From the IMG/VR virus record IMGVR_UViG_3300030104_002049, positions 1 to 20,117 of that record: a stretch of 20,117 nt of DNA; one strand, 5' to 3'. Below the pieces are notes generated by a model that had not been told where the DNA came from, searched no databases, and saw only the letters and a list, made by a program, of their open reading frames with translations. The position numbers were made by a program, and so were the translations under genes. Position 1 is the first letter of the stretch, and every line of letters starts with the position of its first letter. Source of the stretch: a virus. Below, in pieces: positions 4,359-18,735 of this stretch.

Positions 4359-5012
4359 TTAACCTCTATAACTGTTGAGTTTTTCTAACACGCCTTGATT
4401 GATCCACTCATTACCGTGGCCAGCGTGGTTTTCATTTAACTTTTCATCAGCTTCCTTCACTTCGAAGTTATCCTCACTGATGACCAGTGCCGTTTCCGAG
4501 AGTTTCCTCTCAGCGTTAGCCGACTCCTGAATGCTTTCGACTTCATGTCTAACAGCAGTCAAAGACTCTTCTAACTTTTGGTTCTTATCGTTCGAGACCT
4601 TAGCTTGACGCTTCAGGCTGACATTCTCCTTAAGGAGCTTATCAACTTGACGGAGAAGGGCTTGGTTCTTCTCTTCTTGCTGCTCACCAAGGGTAGCGAG
4701 GGCGGTCATACCGTTCATCTCATCTTGGTTCGTGGTCTCAAGAGCAAACATTGAACGGACGGTTTCGAACATTTGAGCGTTACGGTAGGTCTCGTTCTCA
4801 AGCTCAAGCTCCTTTAAGGCTTGCTCTTTCAGCTTTTCAATGTTTCCACGGATGAAAGATTGGACCTTCGTGGACAGGTCACTTACTTCTTCTTCGACTC
4901 GCTGCTCGACGTAATCGGCGCAAAGCTCGGACAGCTTCACGAGGACACTTTCATCAAGGCCCTCAGGAAGATGTTCAGCCATCGAATCTAAAATTTTACT
5001 TTGTTGCGACAT
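4359..5012 (-). CDS. gp22: Prohead core scaffold protein (T4 gp22 type)
   Basis: A 217-residue, highly charged and almost wholly helical protein (T4 gp22 is 269). In T4-like phages the scaffold fills the prohead, guides gp23 assembly and is then digested by the gp21 protease. The protein has acidic, Gln- and Glu-rich coiled-coil segments at residues about 45-75 and 105-165, the segment RNAQMFETVRSMFAL near residues 78-92 that is typical of the family, and many L-x-E sites that could be cut. It lies immediately before the capsid gene, as in T4, with only two bases between the stop and the next ATG. A GAGGTTTAAC ribosome site and a CTAAATA promoter-like motif stand upstream, so it may be expressed from its own late promoter together with the capsid gene. 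Confidence 0.88.
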   Translation of the reverse strand: MSQQSKILDSMAEHLPEGLDESVLVKLSELCADYVEQRVEEEVSDLSTKVQSFIRGNIEKLKEQALKELELENETYRNAQMFETVRSMFALETTNQDEMNGMTALATLGEQQEEKNQALLRQVDKLLKENVSLKRQAKVSNDKNQKLEESLTAVRHEVESIQESANAERKLSETALVISEDNFEVKEADEKLNENHAGHGNEWINQGVLEKLNSYRG

Positions 5013-5030
5013 GTTAAACCTCTATGTAGG

Positions 5031-5037
5031 TATTTAG
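5031..5037 (-). promoter_or_regulatory. Candidate late promoter ahead of scaffold and capsid genes (CTAAATA)
   Basis: The minus strand reads ACCCTAAATACC in the 50-base gap before the scaffold gene, about 18 bases before its ATG and ahead of an AGAGGTTT ribosome binding site. It is identical over seven bases to the motif at 39-45. A promoter here would give the scaffold and capsid genes a transcript separate from the upstream core genes and ending at the terminator at 2630-2658. Confidence 0.5.
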
Positions 5038-5062
5038 GGTAGTTAACTATTTTAAATAATAA

Positions 5063-5767
5063 TTATTTTTTCTTACCCTTCTTCTTTTTCTTCTTACCGC
5101 CGGGAGTTGTCTTCCCACTGCAAACAGCAGAAGCATACATGTTAGCATAAGCCGAAGGGTAGACATCAAACTTACGCTTCGCAGCCGCTTTGCCTCTAGC
5201 GCACAGCTTCTCCGAAATGATTTGACCAAAGAGTTCAACCGACTCTTTCTTAGAACTTTTCTTATTTTTAAAAGTGGAAACCATAGTGGGTTTACCCCCT
5301 GGGTTACCTGCTGCTCTCTTGCGTTTAACAGCAGATCTTCTTTGACCTTTACTCATGCTAGCCGCTTTTGCAGCAGGCACACACTTTGGGTATCCTTTAC
5401 GCTTCTCACCTTTAGAACGACCGCAGGGTTTGAAACCACCACCCTTTTTAGGAGCGCCGATATCAACCCAGCGTTGTTGAACCCACTTACGTAGATCCTC
5501 AGCAAGCTTATACTTGGAGTTGGTGTTTTCGTTTTTCTCGTGATATTCTTTGGGGTGGAACTTCATCTCTACTACCTTAGCATCTTTTTTAATGCTCTTA
5601 CCATCAACTAAGACCTCCACAGGAGCAGGCTTATCTGGCTTCTCATACCAGTAAGCCATCGTGTAACCACCATTCTCTAGGAGCTTAACTAGTAAGCCCC
5701 TATCGTAGTCCTTGTCTTCGGCTTTTAAAACCTTTTGGACTCCGCGTGGTAGTTTCAAATCAGTCAT
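5063..5767 (-). CDS. Basic two-domain protein between the protease and scaffold genes
   Basis: A 234-residue, very basic protein. Three parts are visible. Residues 1-80 are unrecognised. Residues about 88-168 match a small module I know from many marine phages: W-V-D-I-G-x-P-K-K-G-G-G, C115, then K-G-Y-P-K-C129 and MSKGQRRSAVKRKR, ending AGNPGGKP. Residues 188-218 match a second recurrent phage module, CARGKAAAKRKF followed by YPSAYANMYASAVC. A lysine-only tail ends the protein. Between the two modules, ELFGQIISE at residues 178-186 resembles a T4 capsid-targeting and cleavage site. The start overlaps the preceding stop as ATGA. The charge and place suggest an internal head or DNA-binding protein packaged with the genome, but this is inference; neither module has a function I can name. 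Confidence 0.85.
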   Translation of the reverse strand: MTDLKLPRGVQKVLKAEDKDYDRGLLVKLLENGGYTMAYWYEKPDKPAPVEVLVDGKSIKKDAKVVEMKFHPKEYHEKNENTNSKYKLAEDLRKWVQQRWVDIGAPKKGGGFKPCGRSKGEKRKGYPKCVPAAKAASMSKGQRRSAVKRKRAAGNPGGKPTMVSTFKNKKSSKKESVELFGQIISEKLCARGKAAAKRKFDVYPSAYANMYASAVCSGKTTPGGKKKKKKGKKK

Positions 5768-6252
5768 TTCTTAGCTGATTCCTTGGGTTTCTTATCATCA
5801 TGGCCGTTACCATTACCATTGGCATCGGATGCTTCAGCAGCACCTTCAGACACGATAGAACGTAAGTTTTGCATTAAAGCGGTTGCAACTAAAGTTAGGA
5901 GTGCAGATGCAACCGACACTTGATCGCTTGGCAATGCACCAAATCCTAGCATTGCAATGAAGCCACCAATTAATAAAACAAGAAGAGCAGGCGTTGTGAG
6001 AGCGATGTTAGTACGAGCTTTCTCACTAGCACTTTGAGACAGTTTCAGCTTAGTTAATTCAAGTTGAATTCTATCCCTTTGAAGAGCACGTTCAGCAGCT
6101 TTTTCTTCTCTTTCACGAGCTACGACAGCTTTATACTTATCACGGGCGGCTCTCGCCTCCTCCCGCTTCATCTTCAATGCTGCCTTTTCGTCTTTCACAA
6201 TAAATGTCTGCTTTCCGGTGTTGTAATCGTCATAGTCTTCATGTTTTGACAT
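5764..6252 (-). CDS. Small membrane protein with N-terminal coiled coil
   Basis: A 162-residue protein I do not recognise by family. Residues 18-78 are a charged coiled coil rich in Lys, Arg, Glu and Ala. Residues about 83-106 and 111-129 are two hydrophobic segments joined by a short GALPSD turn, so both ends should lie on the same side of the membrane. The C-terminus is hydrophilic (Asn-Gly repeats, then Lys). An AAGGA site precedes the ATG. It is coupled to the next gene by an ATGA overlap and stands between the prohead protease and the scaffold. T4 proheads assemble on the inner membrane, so a membrane anchor for prohead initiation is a fair hypothesis. A holin is possible from its size and two membrane segments, but the long coiled coil and the location argue against it. 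Confidence 0.85.
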   Translation of the reverse strand: MSKHEDYDDYNTGKQTFIVKDEKAALKMKREEARAARDKYKAVVAREREEKAAERALQRDRIQLELTKLKLSQSASEKARTNIALTTPALLVLLIGGFIAMLGFGALPSDQVSVASALLTLVATALMQNLRSIVSEGAAEASDANGNGNGHDDKKPKESAKK

Positions 6253-6281
6253 GGTTCATTCCTTGGGTTTAATTGTTTGCT

Positions 6282-7631
6282 TTAGTCCTTAGATTGATCT
6301 CGACCCGGACCACCTTTTCGGAGTCGCTCTCTTTCATTGTCTGCGACAGCTCTGGCTGCTCCTCTGGGATCGAGGGCTGCGGGCTTTCCACCCGCCACTC
6401 GTCTAGCACGCGCTCTCTGAGCCATTGCAAGTTTTTCATCATCTGTCAGGTCTTCGTATCTACGCTCATCCTTTCTGATAAGGTTTCTGTAGGCTTCGAT
6501 AACCTGTTGCTTTGCAAATCCTCTAAGCTTTTTTTGTCTTTCTTCCCTTTCCGCTGCTGCCTGTCGGCCTGCTGCTGTTCTGTCTGTGCCTTTGTAGGAG
6601 CCTGGGGATCCATACACCTTTCCAGGCTTAGGGGCCTTTCCCAGTTTTTGCTGAAGTTTGGCGCGGTCGTCTCTTTTGTCCTGGGCGGCTTGCGTGTATT
6701 TTTTAGCGGGACCAGTAAGCTGCTCGATCAAATTCCTATAGGCTTCGACAACCTTTTTACCGAAAATATCAGTAGAGGAGTTTTCGGCTGGTGGCTTAGG
6801 CTTAGGCTTAGGTTTAGGCTCCGGTAGCGGATCTTCGCCTTTTTTTTCTTGACGTTCAATATCTTGGTCTTTGAAGTAACTTTCGTTCTTGCTACCAGTG
6901 ATAGCCTTACGAACCGCATTACGACGGTTCTTCAGGTAGCTGTCAGTTTCATCCTCATCACCATCATTATCAATGTCACCATCTTCTTGACCAACAGGAT
7001 CGAGCTTCTTCTTAGCCTTCTTCTTGGCCATAGCCTCTTCAATCATGTTAGCAAAAGTAGTAGCTAAGGCTCTGTCCTGCTTGTGCTTTTTAACAATAGC
7101 CTGAGCACGCTCACTGTTCTCACGCATAGATTCCGAAAGCTCAGGGAACGCACCTCTCGTAGACGGATCAGATACAAGATCAAACGTAATCAGTTTGAAG
7201 TCTTCGTTAACAACCTTACCTTTGATGCTCTCCGAAACGCTACCAACGCCTCTACTGGAGATGCCAATCTTCACACCGTCGTCAATCAGGTTTTGAACGA
7301 TCTGACCATTAGGAGTAGACAGGATTTCGCACTCTCCCATCACATCGCCATTATCCTCAAGCCACAGGTTCGTGATAAGGTGCGAAGCTTGCGATAAGTG
7401 AATAGCATCGTTAGTCGGGTGATCTAAAGCACCAACCAGGGATCTATCGCCAATCTTCTCTTGGATCGCCTTTACTTGGCTTTCAAGAACTTTCTTGGGG
7501 TAGATTCTACCATTGTTGTTCTGCTCATCACACTTCTGAAACTTACCTCTAAGCTTCTTCTTCTGGGCTGCACCCTTACCTTCAGTGATAACCTGAACAT
7601 TCTCTAAAACGTTGTATTCTACGAGTAACAT
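6282..7631 (-). CDS. gp21: Prohead core protease (T4 gp21 type) with long C-terminal extension
   Basis: The serine protease that matures the prohead by cutting scaffold, core and capsid precursors. The catalytic domain fills residues 1-165: NNGRIYP at 39-45, then GALDHP with the likely catalytic His71, and GISSRGVGS with the likely nucleophile at Ser125 or Ser126. T4 gp21 is only about 212 residues; this protein has 449. The extension carries a lysine run, an aspartate-rich EF-loop-like segment (219-230), a Lys-Pro linker (272-281) and two copies of EAYRNLI (296-302, 379-385). The frame stays open upstream to a TTG at 7661. I prefer the ATG at 7631, because AGGA stands six bases before it and the 22-base overlap with the previous gene disappears. 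Confidence 0.93.
   Translation of the reverse strand: MLLVEYNVLENVQVITEGKGAAQKKKLRGKFQKCDEQNNNGRIYPKKVLESQVKAIQEKIGDRSLVGALDHPTNDAIHLSQASHLITNLWLEDNGDVMGECEILSTPNGQIVQNLIDDGVKIGISSRGVGSVSESIKGKVVNEDFKLITFDLVSDPSTRGAFPELSESMRENSERAQAIVKKHKQDRALATTFANMIEEAMAKKKAKKKLDPVGQEDGDIDNDGDEDETDSYLKNRRNAVRKAITGSKNESYFKDQDIERQEKKGEDPLPEPKPKPKPKPPAENSSTDIFGKKVVEAYRNLIEQLTGPAKKYTQAAQDKRDDRAKLQQKLGKAPKPGKVYGSPGSYKGTDRTAAGRQAAAEREERQKKLRGFAKQQVIEAYRNLIRKDERRYEDLTDDEKLAMAQRARARRVAGGKPAALDPRGAARAVADNERERLRKGGPGRDQSKD
6477..6500 (-). repeat. Second copy of the EAYRNLI coding repeat
   Basis: Encodes IEAYRNLI at residues 378-385 of the prohead protease, preceded by KQQV. It matches the copy at 6726-6749 in seven of eight residues, and the DNA is also similar (GGCTTCGA shared on the plus strand). 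Confidence 0.85.
6726..6749 (-). repeat. First copy of the EAYRNLI coding repeat
   Basis: Encodes VEAYRNLI at residues 295-302 of the prohead protease, just after the Lys-Pro linker. It is followed by EQL rather than the RKD of the second copy. Confidence 0.85.
6793..6816 (-). repeat. Hexanucleotide repeat encoding a Lys-Pro linker
   Basis: Four GGCTTA-type units in a row on the plus strand (the fourth is GGTTTA). They encode repeated Pro-Lys dipeptides in the protease extension. Such a segment should be stiff and extended, separating the catalytic domain and acidic loop from the EAYRNLI helices. Confidence 0.85.
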
Positions 7632-7639
7632 AATAAATC

Positions 7640-7966
7640 CTATTTCTGCTTGCGAGACCAATACTTCTTGCTCGTAAACTTATCAGAGCGTTGCTGACCA
7701 TGTCTCATCATTGTTCTAACCGCATACTTCTTAATGTCCGCGAACTTAGAGGGTATGCTACCAGGGGAGAAACCTTTTGCGGTCCTTCCTCCAACTGCTT
7801 GTTCATCATCCTTACCCCACTTCTGTTTAGTAATGACGTAAAGTCTGTCTGAGTTTTCAGTCGAGAAGATTTGACCGACATAACCTTTGCTGAGAGCGTC
7901 AGTAATAGATTTATAAACCTTAACACGCGACTTAGAAGCCTTGGTCTTACGAGTGGCCTTTCTCAT
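7640..7966 (-). CDS. Small basic protein in the head-core cluster
   Basis: A 108-residue basic protein (pI clearly high, Lys/Arg at both ends). The frame is open to an ATG at 8038, but that start would overlap the previous gene by 32 bases and has a poor ribosome site. The ATG at 7966 has GGGGAGGT six bases upstream and removes the overlap, so I use it. The middle, residues about 17-75, has the pattern KVYKSITDALSKGYVGQIF, SDRLYVITKQKWGK and VGGRTAKGF, which I associate with small conserved proteins of marine T4-like phages without known function. It sits in the place of T4 genes 67/68, directly before the prohead protease, whose AGGA ribosome site overlaps this gene's stop. A role in the prohead core is suggested by position only. 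Confidence 0.8.
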   Translation of the reverse strand: MRKATRKTKASKSRVKVYKSITDALSKGYVGQIFSTENSDRLYVITKQKWGKDDEQAVGGRTAKGFSPGSIPSKFADIKKYAVRTMMRHGQQRSDKFTSKKYWSRKQK

Positions 7967-8943: not shown

Positions 8944-9810
8944 TTAGGCGGTCGGGAAAAAGGGATTGCCGGGGTTGAATAACTGTAAATATACAGTTAT
9001 CGGAAATTCTTTTTCAATAATACCTTGATTTCCGTAGATCATCTTCACCTTAATAGTAATACTCCTAACGAATTTTTTATTGTCGTTTGGTTGTCTAGGA
9101 GGTATAAAGCTAGGAATTAAGGTTAACGTTCCTGCATTATCTATGGTGAAAGGACCTGTGACAACTTCAAATCTTACAAATGGATCCAAAGGCGCCCTGA
9201 ATACGGGAGGAGCTTCGGCGGGGAGGCTGGGCGCTCCAATGCCTTGAGTGCTTGTAAATGTTCTTTGAGGATTAAGAACATCCTCTTCCGTTATCTTAAT
9301 TGTAAAAGGGTTGGAGGTCCTAGGTTGAAATGCTGAGTTTACCCAATGTTTAAATGTTTCCCTTTGGTTGGAATTGTTCACCTCAATAGCACCACGAAGA
9401 CCGATTGTAGGCCAAGAGGCATTAAGGGCATCAGGACCATTTACAACGTAACTCACAGTCTCTCCAGGGTCTTGACCAGCGGGTATACCTCCAGGGAACA
9501 ATTCTCCAATGTTCCCACCACCATCGGCAAAGACATTACCGCCTTGCGTATCAGCAACATCACCACACCCCATAGGATCACCATCCCTTACAACTGCAAA
9601 ACCGTCTATAAAAACTGTAGGGCTTCCTACCATTGTCACAACGTCATGGGAAATAATATCGCCGCACTTACCGGGATGCCTTCCTTGATCCCCTACAACA
9701 ACAGCAGCCCGGTTATTGATAAAGACGCTACCTTGTGTCTCTGCATTCAGCGGAGCCGCTGGCCAGCAGTGGCCCTGAGTTTCATCTTGATCTCTAACAA
9801 TTAAAGGCAT
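8944..9810 (-). CDS. PAAR-type spike tip protein with C-terminal beta domain
   Basis: Residues 1-100 are a PAAR domain, the sharp cone that caps the central spike of contractile tails (gp5.4 in T4, about 97 residues). It shows the repeated short-strand pattern with AETQGSVFINNRAAVVVGD, then H-P-G-K-C-G, S-H-D, SPTVFIDGFAVVRDGDPMGCG and VFADGG. Candidate zinc ligands are His14, His45, His55 and Cys82, with Cys15 and Cys49 nearby. The protein is 288 residues, so about 190 residues are added. These include a Pro/Gly linker and, at about 210-285, a beta-sandwich-like domain with FTIDNAGTLTLIP, a cadherin- or Ig-like strand pattern. The start is a TAATG overlap with the previous gene, placing it in the tail operon. 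The extension might bind the spike, the baseplate or the host surface; its role is unknown. Confidence 0.88.
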   Translation of the reverse strand: MPLIVRDQDETQGHCWPAAPLNAETQGSVFINNRAAVVVGDQGRHPGKCGDIISHDVVTMVGSPTVFIDGFAVVRDGDPMGCGDVADTQGGNVFADGGGNIGELFPGGIPAGQDPGETVSYVVNGPDALNASWPTIGLRGAIEVNNSNQRETFKHWVNSAFQPRTSNPFTIKITEEDVLNPQRTFTSTQGIGAPSLPAEAPPVFRAPLDPFVRFEVVTGPFTIDNAGTLTLIPSFIPPRQPNDNKKFVRSITIKVKMIYGNQGIIEKEFPITVYLQLFNPGNPFFPTA

Positions 9811-12533
9811 TATCTATCTGACTCCCTAATAATAGTCTTATCGTCATCCTCTAGAAAACTAGACTCAAGGTCCTTGCCCGTATTCAATACGCTTTTTATC
9901 TTTATATTATCCCTAAATCCTCTTTCTAGCTCATTTACTATTCTGGAGTTTGTTGAATTCAGAAACTCCCCCACTCTATTAAGAGGCATTCGACGAATGA
10001 CATCATACCAAGTTATGGTTTCTGGATTATACTCAGTTTTAATGTAGTCAATAACATCCCTGACCATGTAAGAAATACCATTAGTAGATACCGAAGGTAT
10101 ATTAGCACTGGTTGTATACTCTCCGTCAACATAGAAAGTGTCCGTATATCTAACATCAGAAGCTTGATATTTATATATCACATTCTGAGTATCGTTAGGT
10201 TCAGCAAGCCCAACCCTTAAATCCCCACCAGTATCATTAAATAAATTGACCTCCTCCAGGTCAGGTTTAGACACTTCCAAGTCGGTAATATTTATGTCAG
10301 GAATCAATCTAATAGTTCTTACAAAAGGATCCACAAAGTTTTCCAACTTAGACTGACCGTTAAAGGGGTTGTGCTTAGACCCCATAACTGGTGTAATGAT
10401 CAAACCAAAAGGCATGTTCCTAGCTATTCTAGATCCGTTAGGTAGATCCTTGGGATCCAATATAGTTGTGAGGTTTATATCGTTTAGAGACAACGAGAGA
10501 CTTCCACTATCCAGGATGTATCTAAATATCGGGTCTCGATAATCTATATTCACACGAGTGATAGAAAGACCATTATTCTTCGCATGTCGATCGATAACAT
10601 CCTGATCCTTTTCGACATTGTAGGTGCCTTTGTAGTTTGATATTAACGGGTTGGCGTTAGTATCAAACTCAACGCTGGAGAGGTCTAGAGTAAGATAGAG
10701 TGGGTCTATCGCTGAAGGTCCTGTATCACCCGCAACAAACTCATTCTGACCGTTTACAGCCGTTGCTAGGATTGTGTAAGATGAGTCTTGTTTGGCCAGC
10801 TTCAATGCGTTGAATCTAACGCCTGCTGGGACATAGAAGGTGCTAGAGACATCCGTTAGTAATAGTAGAGGAATCTCTGTCCCATCTGCAAGTTTAGCGG
10901 GAATATAATAACCATCACCATCTCCAAGGGTCATCTTATACTCTCCACCCGCTAAAGTGCTAACATCAAACCCAATATCTTCCAACGTCAGATCTATGTC
11001 TACAGGACCGCTCGCCACATTATTAGATATCCTGGCGTTTATGTCGGTCAAGAATCTTCTTTCTCTTCTACTTTGCCTTTGTTGTAAATTTATCAATTGC
11101 GAGGAAGAAGAGTCCGCAGTGACAGAACCCTCGGAAACTAAACCTAATGCTGCTCTTTCTGAAGCATCTCGGTCGGTAAGTGAGGTGTATGCAACTCGTC
11201 TATCATTTGATTGATTTGAAGCTAAAGTAATATAATAATTAGGATCTACTTCTGAGAGAGTTCCCTCAAACAAATGCCTCTTAATCATTTGAAAAAACAA
11301 TGCCTTACCTACCAGTTGCCCTCCAATCTCGTGAATTGACTCGAAAGCGGCTAAAAGAGAAGGCTGTAAACTTTGCTCTATATGCTCCAGCTTTATAGAG
11401 AATAGCATACTCTCATCCCAAGCCTCTGTAGATCCCTGATTATTTAAAAGATATCCTACATTGGAGATAACCTGATTCTTAAATATCTCTGGGTAAGCTT
11501 GAGAGCCTGTAAAAGTTGACCGAGATATAGGTTGGTTTTTAGTAAACCAGTTAAAAGTGTTGTGATAAATTTGAGAGTTTGTACCTACAGGGTTCTGAGA
11601 TACCGTTGGTTGGTTTGCTCCTAATTCTTCTACGTTTACAACCTGAACATTGAAAGATCCTCCATTGGAAGTAGGTTGTGATACGTTAGTTACCCCTAAA
11701 GAAACTCCTCCTGCCTGACCCGGTATCGATACGTTAGTATATCCTAAGTTAGCAGGATCTTTAGGATTTACAAAAGATGTAGACTGAGAAGCTACGCTTA
11801 AAGGCTCGTTGCAATCTGATACAAGGTTCATCCCGGTGGGGCTAACAGGCGGACAATTAGCCTCACAATTGGCTTTGGATGAATGAATGCAATCAGTCTC
11901 GAACTTCTTAACTCCCCTAGAACCCTTTAACACTGGAGAGCCCATTCTTTGAAGAACATTAGATCCCGTTGAATTTAAAGGACTACAGGGAATGCATTCA
12001 TTTGTAACTTGTAAGACTCTTGGATTTGCAAGGTTCAAATCATCAGGGCAAATAAATAAAGTTTGTCGGCACTTGTGAGGGACCTCAGGAGTTGCAGCAG
12101 GAGAAAAGACTGGACCACCAGCAGGAGGTTGCGTTTGCGAAAAGTTAGGTATGAGTTGTTGTGGGTTAGGGCAATTATCATCACACTCTATTTTATCAAC
12201 CCATAGGCATTCAGAATCATTAGGATTTGGGTTAAATGGAGGATCTGGAAATTGAAAGTTTTGAGCACCGTTACAAGGCAAGCAGTATTGAAAAAATGAA
12301 TTAATATACTCAAATCCAAACTTAGGACTAGGGGCAAAAGATAGATTTGTCTTAACGCACTTAAACTTGGGAGGGCCAGGAACTTTAGGCTCAATAAAAG
12401 GCGGCTGCTTCTCACCGGGAGGATCCAGGGAGGGTACAATAACAGTGGGTGAGGGGGTAGGGAGATTGCCTACGGTAATAGGTTCTCCCCCTGGGACAAA
12501 TTCTCCACACCCAAAATAAATAGGATCGCTCAC
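9810..12533 (-). CDS. Large virion protein with duplicated cysteine module at the N-terminus
   Basis: A 907-residue protein without a family I can name. It starts with GTG (the next ATG is far inside), with GAGAG eight bases upstream. Residues 1-57 are rich in Pro and Gly. Residues 58-241 hold 14 of the protein's 15 cysteines (the other is Cys9), in two copies of C-x24-C-x2-C ... C-x7-C-x3-C-P. After residue 241 there is no cysteine. The rest alternates helical parts (about 370-420, 470-500) with beta-rich segments and a DGDGYYIPA strand near 545. Its stop overlaps the PAAR gene start (TAATG), which suggests a baseplate or spike-associated protein. The clustered cysteines could bind metal or form disulfides; the sequence does not decide which. 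Confidence 0.88.
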   Translation of the reverse strand: MSDPIYFGCGEFVPGGEPITVGNLPTPSPTVIVPSLDPPGEKQPPFIEPKVPGPPKFKCVKTNLSFAPSPKFGFEYINSFFQYCLPCNGAQNFQFPDPPFNPNPNDSECLWVDKIECDDNCPNPQQLIPNFSQTQPPAGGPVFSPAATPEVPHKCRQTLFICPDDLNLANPRVLQVTNECIPCSPLNSTGSNVLQRMGSPVLKGSRGVKKFETDCIHSSKANCEANCPPVSPTGMNLVSDCNEPLSVASQSTSFVNPKDPANLGYTNVSIPGQAGGVSLGVTNVSQPTSNGGSFNVQVVNVEELGANQPTVSQNPVGTNSQIYHNTFNWFTKNQPISRSTFTGSQAYPEIFKNQVISNVGYLLNNQGSTEAWDESMLFSIKLEHIEQSLQPSLLAAFESIHEIGGQLVGKALFFQMIKRHLFEGTLSEVDPNYYITLASNQSNDRRVAYTSLTDRDASERAALGLVSEGSVTADSSSSQLINLQQRQSRRERRFLTDINARISNNVASGPVDIDLTLEDIGFDVSTLAGGEYKMTLGDGDGYYIPAKLADGTEIPLLLLTDVSSTFYVPAGVRFNALKLAKQDSSYTILATAVNGQNEFVAGDTGPSAIDPLYLTLDLSSVEFDTNANPLISNYKGTYNVEKDQDVIDRHAKNNGLSITRVNIDYRDPIFRYILDSGSLSLSLNDINLTTILDPKDLPNGSRIARNMPFGLIITPVMGSKHNPFNGQSKLENFVDPFVRTIRLIPDINITDLEVSKPDLEEVNLFNDTGGDLRVGLAEPNDTQNVIYKYQASDVRYTDTFYVDGEYTTSANIPSVSTNGISYMVRDVIDYIKTEYNPETITWYDVIRRMPLNRVGEFLNSTNSRIVNELERGFRDNIKIKSVLNTGKDLESSFLEDDDKTIIRESDR
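11850..12074 (-). repeat. Cysteine module, copy 2
   Basis: Encodes residues 154-228 of the 907-residue protein. Cysteines at 155, 180, 183, 215, 223 and 227, with an extra one at 162. The spacing is K-C-x24-C-I-P-C-x31-C-x7-C-x3-C-P. Confidence 0.88.
12168..12362 (-). repeat. Cysteine module, copy 1
   Basis: Encodes residues 58-122 of the 907-residue protein. Cysteines at 59, 84, 87, 109, 117 and 121. The spacing is K-C-x24-C-L-P-C-x21-C-x7-C-x3-C-P, identical to copy 2 except for the loop length. Confidence 0.88.
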
Positions 12534-12549
12534 TAGTTAACTCTCACTC

Positions 12550-14652
12550 TTACATAGCCCCATTAGGGATTTCATATGTGATATCACTAGAGTTAGGCTC
12601 GTACACCCAACCTGTAATTAGTAGAGTTACAAATAAGTTTTCATTGCCGTTACTGTGATTAAATTGTAATCTTTCTGGTAATAGATATATGAAGACTCGA
12701 CCATCAGTAGTAACTCTAACAGGACATAACATGCTGTTCATGAAAGTGTTTGACATCTTTCCGCTTTCTACTGACCCACCCGCAGTTAAGAGCACCCTAG
12801 AATGACCTGCGGCTTGAAGTGAACGTTCGTTTGTATGGCTTATTCTAAGATCAAAAATATCAGTATCTGTACGGGTTCTTCCGCCTCCGGCGGCGCTTTG
12901 TCCAGCGACGCGGGGTCCAGGCATTCCTTGATCGATGATAGCTGTGAAGTATACCCCTTTTAGTGAGTATGGGTTAGCTACACTATTAACTGCACCTCCA
13001 AAAGCGTTAGTAATATCAAACTCTGTGTATACAGAGTCAGAAAACGAAGTAATCTTTTTACTAGTAATGCCCGTGACCTCTATAGGTTTATTTCGAGTGA
13101 ATACTTTATTCACTTTAAGATTGTTTATAATAGTTTGAAGCGGGTTTATCCTATTCTGCACAACAGAATCTACTCCATCCTTGATATCCTTCTTAACAAA
13201 ATCTAAGTGAGCCTCAGAGACAACCGGGTTAGCTATAGATATTTGAGGAGTTGCAGCAGCAATCCCCGCTCTTTCGTTATAAGCCAACTCCGTAGTCCTA
13301 AAGAAAGGTCTGATATCAATGATGTCGTTGTCCGTGATAACGGCATCGCCAACACTGTTGAAGCTAGCATCATTTTTCACTACGACATAGGCAACTGGTA
13401 GGATCGACTGACCGATAAGAGCAACCGAAGTGGTGCTCAAAGTTTCAGCCAGAAGTGGTGCTAAGTTCATCAAATCATCAGGGGAAGGGAAGGATCCTCT
13501 AACAACACTGCCAGCAGAAGTGGCGAATCCAGTGTTTTCCGCAAGCTCATCAGAACTATTCGGAATCATTAATGTTACACCATCAATGCTTTGAAGATCA
13601 ACTCTGGATTGCGGATTAGTTGACCCAGGAACCCCAGCGTCTTGAAACTTTCTTACACCCACACCCGCACCTTTAAGTATGCCTAGGGTAGGTTTGGTTA
13701 TCGTTCTAGGGGACCCATTTGTATAAGAAGGTAAGCTGGTTTCACTTTGATCAATTGCTTTTGAGTAGATAAAAACAAGGTCGATTCTTTGATTAGCTGT
13801 AACCGTCTGCTTATTATCGTTCTCATCAAAGTAGAAAAAGTCTTCGGAATCAAAACTAGGAATCTCAATTTCCAAAGTCTCACTTACATCAACTATGGAT
13901 GTTCTAGCAACTCCTCTCCATTTTTTAATAAACTCAGACTCCAACCTACCCGTTATTCTAAAGTTTTCTTCGGTGGTTATTCCTGTGAAGTTTGATCTAA
14001 GAATTGAGTAAAAGCCTTCTGAGTCTGTCTGCCCAGCAAACTCATTGATCATACCTATAAACCCAGGCCAAAAAGTTTGTTGAGAACCAAAGGTCGAAGG
14101 CTCTCGAACATTGTTAGGATCGTTAGAATCTACACCCTCAGAAGCAGTGTAGATATCTTTCATACCATACACAAACACCCTCTCAAACAGGCCGTTCATC
14201 AGGGTGGCATTGGAAGATAATCTATCTTGCCATTTATCTAAGGCAGCAGCTACATCTGTGTTTTTTGCAGTTCCTACGTTATACTTTGAAGTATCATCAA
14301 CGAAATCTCCCGTGAAGACTTGAGTTATGAACTGCAAGGGGTCTTTGCTGTAGGCATCGTTTATTCTGGCTGTGTATCGTCCAGGAAGAACTCTAAGTTT
14401 TGAATCTGTGCCATCGACTGTTGGCTTAAGCTCATTAAATCTAATTCTATCTAAGCCTCTAGTGTTATCAGAAAGAAACTCCCTACCTTGTTCTCTCAGG
14501 AGACCGTCAACTTGATCCTTGAGAAACTTAGAGTTCTCCTCAAGCTGCTTAACTGGGATGTTGTCAACTTCGTAGTAGTAAGGGTCGTTTGCCTTGAAGT
14601 ATCTAACCGGGTCCGTGTAGCGGTTACTAGATTCAAAATAGTTTATAGCCAT
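12550..14652 (-). CDS. Virion protein with fibre-family N-terminal motif
   Basis: A 700-residue probable baseplate or fibre protein. Residues 19-50 carry the motif FKANDPYYYEVDNIPVKQLE, which I associate with structural proteins of T4-like marine phages and which is echoed in the next-door beta-helix protein. A helical stalk (residues 32-55) follows, then long beta-rich segments and a helix near 470-510 (VKKDIKDGVDSVVQNRINPL) that may be a coiled coil. The C-terminal part, from about 530, is beta-rich and ends in GWVYEPNSSDITYEIPNGAM. There is no signal peptide or membrane segment. It is translationally coupled to the upstream gene by a TAATG overlap and also has AGGAA ahead of its ATG. The N-terminal motif may dock it on the baseplate, with the C-terminus outward; this is inference. 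Confidence 0.85.
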   Translation of the reverse strand: MAINYFESSNRYTDPVRYFKANDPYYYEVDNIPVKQLEENSKFLKDQVDGLLREQGREFLSDNTRGLDRIRFNELKPTVDGTDSKLRVLPGRYTARINDAYSKDPLQFITQVFTGDFVDDTSKYNVGTAKNTDVAAALDKWQDRLSSNATLMNGLFERVFVYGMKDIYTASEGVDSNDPNNVREPSTFGSQQTFWPGFIGMINEFAGQTDSEGFYSILRSNFTGITTEENFRITGRLESEFIKKWRGVARTSIVDVSETLEIEIPSFDSEDFFYFDENDNKQTVTANQRIDLVFIYSKAIDQSETSLPSYTNGSPRTITKPTLGILKGAGVGVRKFQDAGVPGSTNPQSRVDLQSIDGVTLMIPNSSDELAENTGFATSAGSVVRGSFPSPDDLMNLAPLLAETLSTTSVALIGQSILPVAYVVVKNDASFNSVGDAVITDNDIIDIRPFFRTTELAYNERAGIAAATPQISIANPVVSEAHLDFVKKDIKDGVDSVVQNRINPLQTIINNLKVNKVFTRNKPIEVTGITSKKITSFSDSVYTEFDITNAFGGAVNSVANPYSLKGVYFTAIIDQGMPGPRVAGQSAAGGGRTRTDTDIFDLRISHTNERSLQAAGHSRVLLTAGGSVESGKMSNTFMNSMLCPVRVTTDGRVFIYLLPERLQFNHSNGNENLFVTLLITGWVYEPNSSDITYEIPNGAM

Positions 14653-17600
14653 TAGTTCAATTTCCTAAGATTAAAGTTGTTTACAGAGGCAACACCCTTA
14701 CCAGAAGTCTTATCCGAAGTTGAGTCTCCACCTATCCCTGTCTTGTAGGGATCATATCTGGTTACTACATTTGCCAGTCCAGACTTGTTTACTGTATTAT
14801 GTTTTGCGTTCGCAAAAGTATTCATAGCGGAATCATCTAAAACAGCCTTTACAGTTTTAGGACTATGCACCATCGACGAAGCGTAGTAGAATCCAGCATC
14901 GCTAATTGTGTAGTATTCAGGACTGAAAATAGTTTTAGTGTATTCTGCACTTACGCTTCCAGGCGCGGAAAGTGCTCCTGAGAACTGGTACCCTTGAGCA
15001 AATACTTGAGTAGCATAACCACTAAGAACATCATTAGGATCCACCAGATAATTGGCTATCGGATCCACAGAGAAATACATCCTGAAAGCTCCAAAGTTCT
15101 TAATTGAGCTTGCTCCAAAGATGTTTTGATCATCATCATCAGGACCGTAGTAGTCCAGGACAGAGAGACTGCTAGTGTCAGGCGTGCCATTAGGTGCTTC
15201 AGATGCGCTATACCAGTTGCCTGAAGGACCAACATAACCAGCGTCTTGAGGGTGCTTACCGCTAACCGAGAGGTAACTAGCCTTCAAGATTGAGTCGTCA
15301 GCAATATTCCAAATGGGAGGTCTAGTACAAGCAGCTTCAAGACCATCGACACCATCAAAGTCGTAAATTACGGAGGACATCTGGTTGTGCCCTGTTGGGA
15401 AGTGAACGTTTACAGCGTTTACCTTACTTTGGTTTAAAGCTCTTACACACATTCCCCCTGTAGTTACTCCCGACACGCCTCCCGCAGCGGCAGTCCTTAA
15501 CTTATCACTTACAGTATTCGGCACATCATAAATGTAGTAGTAAGGCTGTGCATTATAACTACCACTATCAAAGTTCCGGTGGGATTCGGTTAGATTAGTA
15601 TGCTGAGGTTTGAACGGGATACCCGCGCCCAGGAAGGAGTTCGGATAAAACTGAAGTGAGCCCCCACTGACGGAGGATACTACAAGATCGGTCCCTGCGT
15701 CGCCGCTAGTAAGGTAATCCATTCTTGTTAAGTCTAGAGCCGCGCCATACGTGCCTACAGGCCAAAGATCGTGATACGATCCAAGATCTTGAAGGTTTAC
15801 AACAGAGCCGTTATCCGCGACAATACAAGCTCTTGAGGAGTGTAGCTCCACCATGCTATGGTTGGCTGGGTTAGACAGGTCGAATGACGATGTTAAGTAA
15901 GCTCCCTCTTCCTTTTTAGGAGGTGTGATGTTTAGTTGAGAGTTATTATCAATCATCAGATCCACACCAAACTGAGCTACGACGGTAGGACCTTGAAGTG
16001 ATATCGTAGAGTTATCCGTGGCGTAAACTCCCGCCCTGCGTTGCTGAGTTTCTCCAGTCGTATCTCCGATAACTTTGTTTGCATATTGACCAGAACCTCT
16101 GAGGCAGACCTTCGAACCACCCCTAGCAGCTATGGCCTCGCCAAAACAGTATTCATCACTATCACCATGTGCTGAAGGATAGATTGCAGCATGAATAATA
16201 TCTAATTCAGAAGAATCTAGCACAATATTAGGCTTAATATTGTGTCTCTCAACCCCATCTATACTCTCTTGAGTTTTTCCGTGAGTTCCCGAGACAAAGA
16301 AACTCTCGTAAATTGTGGGCATGGAACTCGTAAATACAGGAACAATGGACGAATTCTTTGCGTCGATTGCAGTTCCATTCTTTATGAGGGTAACTTGATG
16401 TTGCTCGTAATCATCCCGAGCGGTATCGTAAAAACTCGCTCCTAAGTAACCACTGTAGACATGGTTGTTGTACGTGAAAGTGCATCCTTCAAGTTTAATA
16501 GCATCCTTTTGATTTGCGTAAGCTTTAAAGTAATCAAACGAGGTATCACTGTTAAAAGCATCCAACCCAAAATAGTTACCATATAAGTTAAACCTACCAG
16601 CAATATCCAGGCTACAATTTTGAAGTCTGGCTCCCGCTTCTGTATTAAGTTCCGAGAAGATCTGAACAGCATCCTGCCACCTTGTTGTAGCAGAGCCATC
16701 AAGTTCAGTTCTCCCCCCTATAATATTAGAGTTCAAACCGTGAATACCGATATCGTTTCTAGATAAGCAGTATAGGTTTTCCTGCGAAGGCACGGGAAGG
16801 TTTCCGTCATAATTAGCAGCCGTGTAAACTAATGAAGAGGCTTCAGAAGACTTTTCAATATCCCTAGCGTAAGTGTTCTTAAAGTCTATGGTAGAGTTTT
16901 CAGCGTATATGCCTGCGCCATAATCATTTAATACAGTGTATGCTTTTCTCTTTTGAATGTAATCAATACCAACACGAGACCCATTAGTGTATCCATAGTT
17001 TCTAAAGGCAACAAACCCTCGTAAAAGTTTTACATCCGAGTTTACTGCGTAAAGGCCCGCCTTTGTACATCTAGAAACTGAACACCTCTCCAGATTAACT
17101 GTGGAGTTTAAAATTTCGATACCCTTTTCTTTGGTCTTCTCGCCATCTACAGTAAAGTTTCTAATGTAGATTGGACCGTTACAATTTGATATCTTTATCG
17201 AGTTTAAGTGGTTGTAGTATAGAGACGCAGCGACTGCATCATGGTTATCCGATCCATTTTCTAGACTTGCAAGTGGGAACAGGCTGGTGCCATCAATCTC
17301 ACTTATAGTGCTGGCATCATAAACATCCATGGAGTCGGTTGTTCTGAAAGATTTGTCATACGGGGCAAACTTAAGAGTCTTTGAAGCAAGCTCTAAGTTT
17401 CCTGTATTATCCCAACCGCTTACAGTACTACTCAAGGAGGCAGTTAGAATTCCTAACTGATCCCTACCAACTCTTCGAGTAAATGCATATTGATTTTCAG
17501 CAGAATATCTGTAATCTTTATATCTAGCTCCCGTTCCAGAAGCTATGAACTGCCTGTTATTGTATAAGTAGGAATTGAATAGGTCAAAAGTGATAGAAGG

Positions 17601-18119
17601 CGCTGAGGCATCAAGTAAAGAACTTACAGAGCTAGCTAAAACAAAATTACTAAAGCCAGTATCACTTGCGTCCACAGACATTACTTCGTTACTGAGGTCA
17701 ACTGCCCCCGCAAAAGCAGAGTTTCTGTTTACAATCTCTAATGATCCGTTTGGCCCAAAGACCTTGTTAGAGATGTGCAGATCACCAAGATCTCCAAAGC
17801 TGGCGACTTCAATCAGTATAGGATAGTTAATAACTTCAGGCATCGCCTTCAAGCATGTTCCAAGCGTTGTGAAATACTGAGGGTTGCACGAAGATGTCGA
17901 GTCGCCTGAAACAACAAAAGACATTCCGGTGATCGAAGAGGTGGGATGGCCTAACCTTTCCCATAAAAGGTGAGTCCTCTCATCCAGGTCATGCAAAGGA
18001 AGGTTATCCTGCTCAAAGTTGTAAAAAGAACTAGCGTCATACTTTGTGACCTTGTCAGTCCAACAAACTAACAGGTCGCTTGAACCGCCTTCCACATATA
18101 CGTCACTTGGGTTTAACAT
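14652..18119 (-). CDS. Large right-handed beta-helix virion protein, likely fibre or tailspike
   Basis: About 1155 residues. The N-terminus (about 33-57) contains YNFEQDNLPLHDLDER, matching the motif of the following gene. Residues about 305-905 show repeated rungs of the form (G)-I/L/V-Y-A-x-N-S-x-I/V, for example AGLYAVNSDVKL, AGIYAENSTIDF and AGVYATDNSTISL. This is the pattern of a right-handed parallel beta-helix as in tailspikes and pectate-lyase-like proteins. The end (from about 915) is Gly/Ser/Asp-rich and may form a receptor-binding or trimer domain. The frame is open to a TTG at 18152, which would overlap the previous gene by 32 bases. I prefer the ATG at 18119, just after that gene's stop (TAATATG), but neither start has a strong ribosome site. 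Whether it binds or degrades a surface polysaccharide cannot be seen. Confidence 0.88.
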   Translation of the reverse strand: MLNPSDVYVEGGSSDLLVCWTDKVTKYDASSFYNFEQDNLPLHDLDERTHLLWERLGHPTSSITGMSFVVSGDSTSSCNPQYFTTLGTCLKAMPEVINYPILIEVASFGDLGDLHISNKVFGPNGSLEIVNRNSAFAGAVDLSNEVMSVDASDTGFSNFVLASSVSSLLDASAPSITFDLFNSYLYNNRQFIASGTGARYKDYRYSAENQYAFTRRVGRDQLGILTASLSSTVSGWDNTGNLELASKTLKFAPYDKSFRTTDSMDVYDASTISEIDGTSLFPLASLENGSDNHDAVAASLYYNHLNSIKISNCNGPIYIRNFTVDGEKTKEKGIEILNSTVNLERCSVSRCTKAGLYAVNSDVKLLRGFVAFRNYGYTNGSRVGIDYIQKRKAYTVLNDYGAGIYAENSTIDFKNTYARDIEKSSEASSLVYTAANYDGNLPVPSQENLYCLSRNDIGIHGLNSNIIGGRTELDGSATTRWQDAVQIFSELNTEAGARLQNCSLDIAGRFNLYGNYFGLDAFNSDTSFDYFKAYANQKDAIKLEGCTFTYNNHVYSGYLGASFYDTARDDYEQHQVTLIKNGTAIDAKNSSIVPVFTSSMPTIYESFFVSGTHGKTQESIDGVERHNIKPNIVLDSSELDIIHAAIYPSAHGDSDEYCFGEAIAARGGSKVCLRGSGQYANKVIGDTTGETQQRRAGVYATDNSTISLQGPTVVAQFGVDLMIDNNSQLNITPPKKEEGAYLTSSFDLSNPANHSMVELHSSRACIVADNGSVVNLQDLGSYHDLWPVGTYGAALDLTRMDYLTSGDAGTDLVVSSVSGGSLQFYPNSFLGAGIPFKPQHTNLTESHRNFDSGSYNAQPYYYIYDVPNTVSDKLRTAAAGGVSGVTTGGMCVRALNQSKVNAVNVHFPTGHNQMSSVIYDFDGVDGLEAACTRPPIWNIADDSILKASYLSVSGKHPQDAGYVGPSGNWYSASEAPNGTPDTSSLSVLDYYGPDDDDQNIFGASSIKNFGAFRMYFSVDPIANYLVDPNDVLSGYATQVFAQGYQFSGALSAPGSVSAEYTKTIFSPEYYTISDAGFYYASSMVHSPKTVKAVLDDSAMNTFANAKHNTVNKSGLANVVTRYDPYKTGIGGDSTSDKTSGKGVASVNNFNLRKLN

Positions 18120-18120
18120 A

Positions 18121-18735
18121 TTATCCGAATGATATTGTCCATCTAAATACAAGACCGAAGTCGGAGGTCTTGGTTATATTGCTAAAGTATCTGTAAGCTG
18201 CCAAAGCTGATTCATCAGTAGCTTTTCCTCTGGCATTCTTAATAAATAGCCCTATTTCATTGAGTGATCTATCTTCACTATCTCGTGTGATACCGTTGCA
18301 CGAATCCTCGTCGATAAATATTGTGTAACGAACTGATCGGTCATCTATTTTGGTGACCTTCGCAAATGGAATCTTAGAAAATACTTGCTCTTCAATCGTC
18401 TCGTTAGTAAGATACAGGTCGCTTGAAACAGCATGAAGATTACTATCAGTACCAGTGCCGGTATACTCAGCCGCAGAGGAGAGAGGACCAGAAAGCTCAA
18501 AAGTAGAACTAACCTGATTGTCTGAGTTGCCACTAACCCCTAATTGAAACCTATCAATCTGAAAGTCTGTAATGGACTGAGATCCTGCAAGGCCATACAA
18601 GTGGGATAACGACCAACCAAAGCCAGACGTAATAACGTTGTCTTCATCATAAATAAGTTCCTCCTCTCCGTTCGCAATCTTGTGAATAGTGAGGTGACCC
18701 TTCATACCGATTTGTTCTACGAATGATTTGTACAT
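18121..18735 (-). CDS. Virion structural protein, tail or fibre associated
   Basis: A 204-residue protein. Its layout recurs in T4-like marine phages as an unnamed structural protein: an N-terminal strand pair (GHLTIHKIANGEEELIYDED), NVITSGFGWSLSHLYG near residues 33-48, F-x-L-G-V-S-G near 63, then LNEIGLFI near 158 and AAYRYFSNITKTSDFGLVFRW near 180. This last part ends exactly at the C-terminus with TISFG. It is likely beta-rich. The start follows the previous stop by one base (TAACATG) without a visible ribosome site, so it probably relies on coupling. The function is not known; it may be an adaptor for the beta-helix protein encoded next. Confidence 0.82.
   Translation of the reverse strand: MYKSFVEQIGMKGHLTIHKIANGEEELIYDEDNVITSGFGWSLSHLYGLAGSQSITDFQIDRFQLGVSGNSDNQVSSTFELSGPLSSAAEYTGTGTDSNLHAVSSDLYLTNETIEEQVFSKIPFAKVTKIDDRSVRYTIFIDEDSCNGITRDSEDRSLNEIGLFIKNARGKATDESALAAYRYFSNITKTSDFGLVFRWTISFG

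Follow-up and report, generated by a model that had tools for sequence, protein, structure and literature searches.

The Locus and Its Genes

The stretch of DNA analysed here (the window, 20,117 nucleotides) belongs to a virus record of 21,154 bases and contains a T4-like structural cluster, comprising a gp23-type capsid protein, which is 35% identical to cyanophage gp23, a prohead protease and a head-tail adaptor. The sheath and tube genes were seen in L011, a relative, and lie outside the record to which the window belongs. With these included, the genes for the gp23-type capsid protein, protease, neck, sheath and tube are linked as in a T4-like structural cluster, in line with the synteny.

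The gene under study is an open reading frame of 907 codons with a GTG start, located at positions 9810–12533 on the minus strand. Its translation and its homologues divide the product into an N-terminal arm of cysteine modules and a C-terminal domain. Directly upstream lies a conserved neighbour recognized by synteny, a gene for a protein of 700 residues (12550–14652, minus strand). Directly downstream is a gene for a PAAR-motif protein (8944–9810, minus strand; PF05488, E 3.7e-8), which overlaps or abuts the cysteine gene in some relatives and is missing there in many; next comes a gene for a protein of 128 residues. Further along the window, positions 14652–18152 encode a protein of 1166 residues with a weak similarity to the Pfam Beta_helix family (E 0.027, below the cut-off). 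In the relatives, this protein has at least 14 cysteines, with counts of mixed parity, and it shares the motif D-N-[L/I]-P-[L/V] near its N-terminus with the 700-residue neighbour. The 907-residue product is inferred to be a virion protein, which fits the T4-like structural synteny.

Cysteines of the 907-Residue Protein

The cysteines of this protein are found at residues 9, 59, 84, 87, 109, 117, 121, 155, 162, 180, 183, 215, 223, 227 and 241, and, as had been observed earlier, none is present beyond the last of these. They thus account for 15 of the first 241 residues (6.2%), against 37 of 5584 (0.7%) for the window's 17 remaining proteins. This enrichment, together with a spacing that recurs in dozens of homologues, indicates that the clustering is not a product of chance.

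Cys9 (12507–12509, minus strand) lies in the motif F-x-C-G-x-x-x-P-G and is the sole cysteine that belongs to no module. All 45 full-length homologues, including the module-free ones, carry at the N-terminus a C-[G/R] motif, which is usually followed by P-G. Module 1 spans residues 55–127 (12153–12371, minus strand) and contains C59, C84, C87, C109, C117 and C121. It is followed by a linker rich in proline and glycine (residues 128–150; 12084–12152, minus strand), where the predicted confidence (pLDDT) falls below 50 at residues 134–147. Module 2 spans residues 151–245 (11799–12083, minus strand) and contains C155, C162, C180, C183, C215, C223, C227 and C241. Beyond it, a low-complexity linker (residues 246–320; 11574–11798, minus strand), with pLDDT below 50 at residues 244–280 and 300–320, leads to the cysteine-free C-terminal domain (residues 321–907; 9813–11573, minus strand). 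This domain is conserved, is common to homologues with and without modules, and is the proposed anchor.

The original prediction, which described two copies of a cysteine module at residues 58–228 (11850–12362), agrees with the translation in its cysteine positions and spacing. The pattern K-C-x24-C-(L/I)-P-C...C-x7-C-x3-C-P fits both copies, with one differing loop that is 21 residues long in the first and 31 in the second. The unit itself was taken to have six cysteines; here the spacing stands, and the unit is incomplete, as C162 and C241 were left out of the second copy. An alignment of 51 modules and a profile scan give the full unit as C1-x6-8-C2-P...C3-x2-C4...C5-x7-C6-x3-C7...C8. An aromatic residue is often present shortly before C1, and a serine or threonine is often found four residues before C6. 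Module 2 is the complete form with eight cysteines, while module 1 is a six-cysteine form devoid of C2 and C8.

The two copies in the window are only 22% identical, which rules out a recent duplication. Copy 1 reached 27 bits against a profile that was built from other modules alone, without those of its own type; with its cysteines held fixed, shuffled versions averaged 7.9 bits and did not exceed 15.9. The copies are, therefore, homologous and old.

Database Searches and Predicted Structure

The claim that the duplicated module belongs to no named domain was upheld, as searches of Pfam, PHROGs and NCBIfam gave no credible match; the NCBIfam rows were isolated weak scores and were discounted. 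No credible match was obtained in the PDB by sequence. Similarly, tblastn with the whole protein, the N-terminal part, several homologues and single modules found no match among 50,697 phage records, a collection in which the capsid protein, used as a positive control, matches 2465 records; no cultured-phage relative came to light.

AlphaFold2 prediction from the module alignment gave a pLDDT of 83.9 and a pTM of 0.69. In this model, a beta hairpin bearing C1 and C3 is accompanied by two further strands and a short helix that bears C6 and is closely followed by C7. The model of the full protein has a pLDDT of 76.2, and its linkers are of low confidence. Foldseek found no match at E 0.001, either in the PDB with the module and the full model or in BFVD with the full model. 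The best VIA-align scores, Z 3.5 for the module and 3.3 for the full model, lie under the level called meaningful (Z 8).

Relatives and Variation in Module Number

A protein search gave one close relative (88–96% identical). More than 130 loci were collected by using the capsid protein and the 700-residue protein as queries, and further ones were added with an alignment of the family. Among these, about 60 open reading frames homologous to the 907-residue protein are present, in uncultivated T4-like contigs. The homologues align across the C-terminal domain of around 585 residues, while their N-terminal parts range from about 200 to more than 600 residues and carry from none to about six modules. 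Profile detection gives five modules in L169, and even close relatives differ, with two in L041 and one each in L095 and L027. Among 24 contigs, the longest of which reaches 102 kb, only this gene contains the module. The module family has no name in the libraries searched, and its members came only from T4-like phages that are uncultivated.

It had been argued earlier that homologues devoid of the cysteines or of their spacing would speak against the module. Module-free homologues do exist (L039, L118, L152 and L117), so that not every one of these viruses requires the modules; the spacing, on the other hand, is kept wherever a module is present. The module is thus an optional element of variable number. 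The N-terminal parts also diverge faster, as in L084 and L123, which are 77% identical in the N-terminal part and 95% in the C-terminal part. In L159, the N-terminal part is closest to those of L090, L096 and L089, and the C-terminal part to those of L011 and L094; its cysteine array appears to have been exchanged. Another homologue, at 2271–5678 of L168, combines eight-cysteine modules with several four-cysteine repeats of the form W-x-C-x(5-9)-C...C-x3-C, which are possibly a minimal form of the module scaffold.

As for the host, a 29,949-base contig with a module-free homologue (L200) was found in a metagenome-assembled genome named Altibacter, a marine flavobacterium. A flavobacterial host is, on this account, a weak lead. 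Of 395 genomes sampled from the phylum of Altibacter, only this one has the homologous protein. The module was found in none of 299 genomes of the host-lead family, a result of little weight as it had no positive control. Far-T4 phages have been linked to marine Bacteroidetes (PMC7198788).

Pairwise Loss of Cysteines and Constant Parity

Reduced and enlarged modules differ from the full unit by pairs of cysteines. Among 76 non-redundant modules detected by the profile, 53 have all eight cysteines, 13 are devoid of exactly C2 and C8, and five of exactly C4 and C5. A four-cysteine form that keeps only C3 to C6, with both C1+C7 and C2+C8 gone, is present in L109, L131, L178 and L180. Another retains only C1, C3, C6 and C7; it occurs in L017 and L070, and visual inspection places it in L030 and L168 as well. 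The second module of L169 has gained two cysteines, at C1+2 and C3-2. In the predicted hairpin (E3-11/E22-32, where C1 is residue 5 and C3 is residue 30), these positions are in antiparallel register, and the two cysteines would face each other. Modules with 4, 6, 8 and 10 cysteines exist. The exceptions to the pair rule are one module of L170 and those of L176, where the gene is split into a cysteine arm (4390–5874) and a cysteine-free C-terminal domain (5908–7848). Shared ancestry inflates these module counts, and the independent pair losses within modules may number only four or five. We infer one nested pairing, C1-C7, C2-C8, C3-C6 and C4-C5, which would account for all the reduced forms.

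The same regularity is seen in whole N-terminal parts. Among the 45 full-length homologues, 13 different cysteine counts occur, ranging from 1 to 51, and the count is odd in all 42 of those with more than two N-terminal cysteines, a result that holds when the boundary of the N-terminal part is shifted within about 40 residues. The odd count is explained by the invariant cysteine of the N-terminal C-[G/R] motif together with an even remainder. The tree built from the C-terminal domain requires a minimum of 22 changes in cysteine count and none in parity, though the gain or loss of whole modules preserves parity by itself, so that the 22 changes are not independent proofs. The control proteins are mixed in parity, with odd and even counts of 22 and 25 for the beta-helix protein, 28 and 24 for the 700-residue protein, and 17 and 16 for the protease.

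Two readings of the module had been offered in the original prediction, a pair of metal-binding knuckles and a disulfide knot. Loss in pairs and constant parity favour the latter, and it is very probable from these patterns that the modules are tied by disulfides. Stabilization of each module by zinc, in the manner of zinc knuckles or clusters, is highly unlikely, even though CxxC pairs are frequent in zinc sites and zinc or Fe-S families in Pfam gave scattered scores with single modules (best E 0.01). These scores come from only one or two of the 51 modules and are not significant. Sites with four ligands would be expected to drop cysteines in groups of four or to exchange them for histidine, whereas here they vary two at a time in fixed pairs, and the parity of all 42 N-terminal parts also counts against metal binding. 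Membership of the zinc knuckles or ribbons, which have a constant four cysteine or histidine ligands per metal, was rejected for the same variation in twos.

Proposed Role of the Module Arm

Because the cytoplasm in which they are made is reducing, structural proteins of phages rarely rely on large numbers of disulfides. It is proposed, with reasonable confidence, that the present one is a structural protein in two parts from a T4-like virus, in which an arm of disulfide-tied modules is carried on a conserved anchor. The C-terminal 585 or so residues would probably anchor the protein in the tail or baseplate region, and the N-terminal third would form a flexible, Pro/Gly-rich arm bearing small domains, each with up to four intramolecular disulfides. 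C3-C6 and C1-C7 would be the usual core bonds, with C2-C8 and C4-C5 optional. The bonds would close once the protein is outside the reducing cytoplasm, thus stiffening an exposed adhesive array.

The Pro/Gly-rich linkers, the changes in copy number, the faster divergence of the arm and the one apparent array swap suggest that this arm is an exposed modular adhesin. Gain and loss alter the number of modules, and one array or more appears to have been exchanged, as happens in host-binding parts. Judged from such features of the sequence, chances are evenly balanced that the arm binds the host. The fullest form of the idea is put forward tentatively, with confidence somewhat short of even: an evolvable array of unnamed disulfide knots, in none to about six copies on a protein of the tail region and folding outside the cell, would determine host attachment and be a phage counterpart of the extracellular cysteine-rich repeat adhesins of animals.

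Stabilizing or cross-linking roles for the modules may fit too. The main rival to an adhesive arm is a structural reinforcement, in which the modules rigidify or cross-link the particle in the manner of Agrobacterium phage Milano, bind no host, and leave Cys9 to join chains. We regard it as rather unlikely. The sheath, tube and baseplate of Milano are indeed linked by disulfides (PMC10811340), and the unpaired Cys9, invariant even in homologues without modules, could possibly form a link between chains. The even cysteine counts of the modules, on the other hand, point to bonds within each module. Moreover, modules that are missing in some relatives and joined by low-confidence linkers are unlike a load-bearing lattice, and their variable number and faster divergence better suit a variable surface. 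The disulfides might instead serve as a redox trigger, where reduction at the host surface releases a change in the baseplate; the authors of the Milano study speculate that a reductant at the host surface may be needed (PMC10811340). No sign of such a switch is seen in the present system and the modules can be wholly missing, which makes this reading most improbable. The stiffened, exposed adhesive arm is the preferred explanation.

Comparison with Known Systems

Like the EGF-like and three-finger (Ly6/uPAR) domains, the present modules are small, cysteine-rich and beta-structured, and such domains form binding arrays of variable number. They differ from both in the order of the cysteines, and no profile match to them was obtained. 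Three-finger and TGF-beta-receptor ectodomains gave the weak structural matches of the module (best Z 3.5, rmsd 4.8, 70 residues aligned), and a Z below 8 is no evidence for a common fold.

Kunitz/BPTI domains have the spacing C-x8-C-x15-C-x7-C-x12-C-x3-C, with bonds 5-55 and 30-51. The module shares with them a terminal helix of the form aromatic-x-S-x-x-x-C-x-x-x-C, and its putative bonds C1-C7 and C3-C6 would resemble 5-55 and 30-51. It differs from them in the spacing and number of its cysteines, including the CxxC and the optional C2-C8. Neither spacing nor profile supports membership of this family, as none of the 51 modules matched the Pfam Kunitz family at E up to 1; by structure, no significant PDB match to any fold was obtained.

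The closest comparison among phages is with Milano, in which a disulfide network joins the subunits of the sheath, tube and baseplate (PMC10811340). Beyond Milano and its relatives, no described cysteine-repeat phage protein was found in the literature, and the search of the phage collection found no sequence relation to the Milano proteins. Both systems have cysteine-rich structural proteins in a contractile-tailed phage, with disulfides in the finished particle, which for the present protein pairwise loss and parity would suggest. The network highlighted for Milano lies between subunits, whereas the present modules would be tied internally and are repeated from zero to about six times on an arm. 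Virion disulfides are already known from Milano; a repeat array of such modules would be a new form of them. If the proposal is true, it provides a clear case, after Milano, of a phage architecture dependent on disulfides, with parity constant across at least 22 changes of count. It also offers a specific connectivity that can be tested, and points to a likely determinant of host range in viruses that have not been cultivated. Cysteine parity and co-loss could, moreover, serve to read bonding from metagenomes alone.
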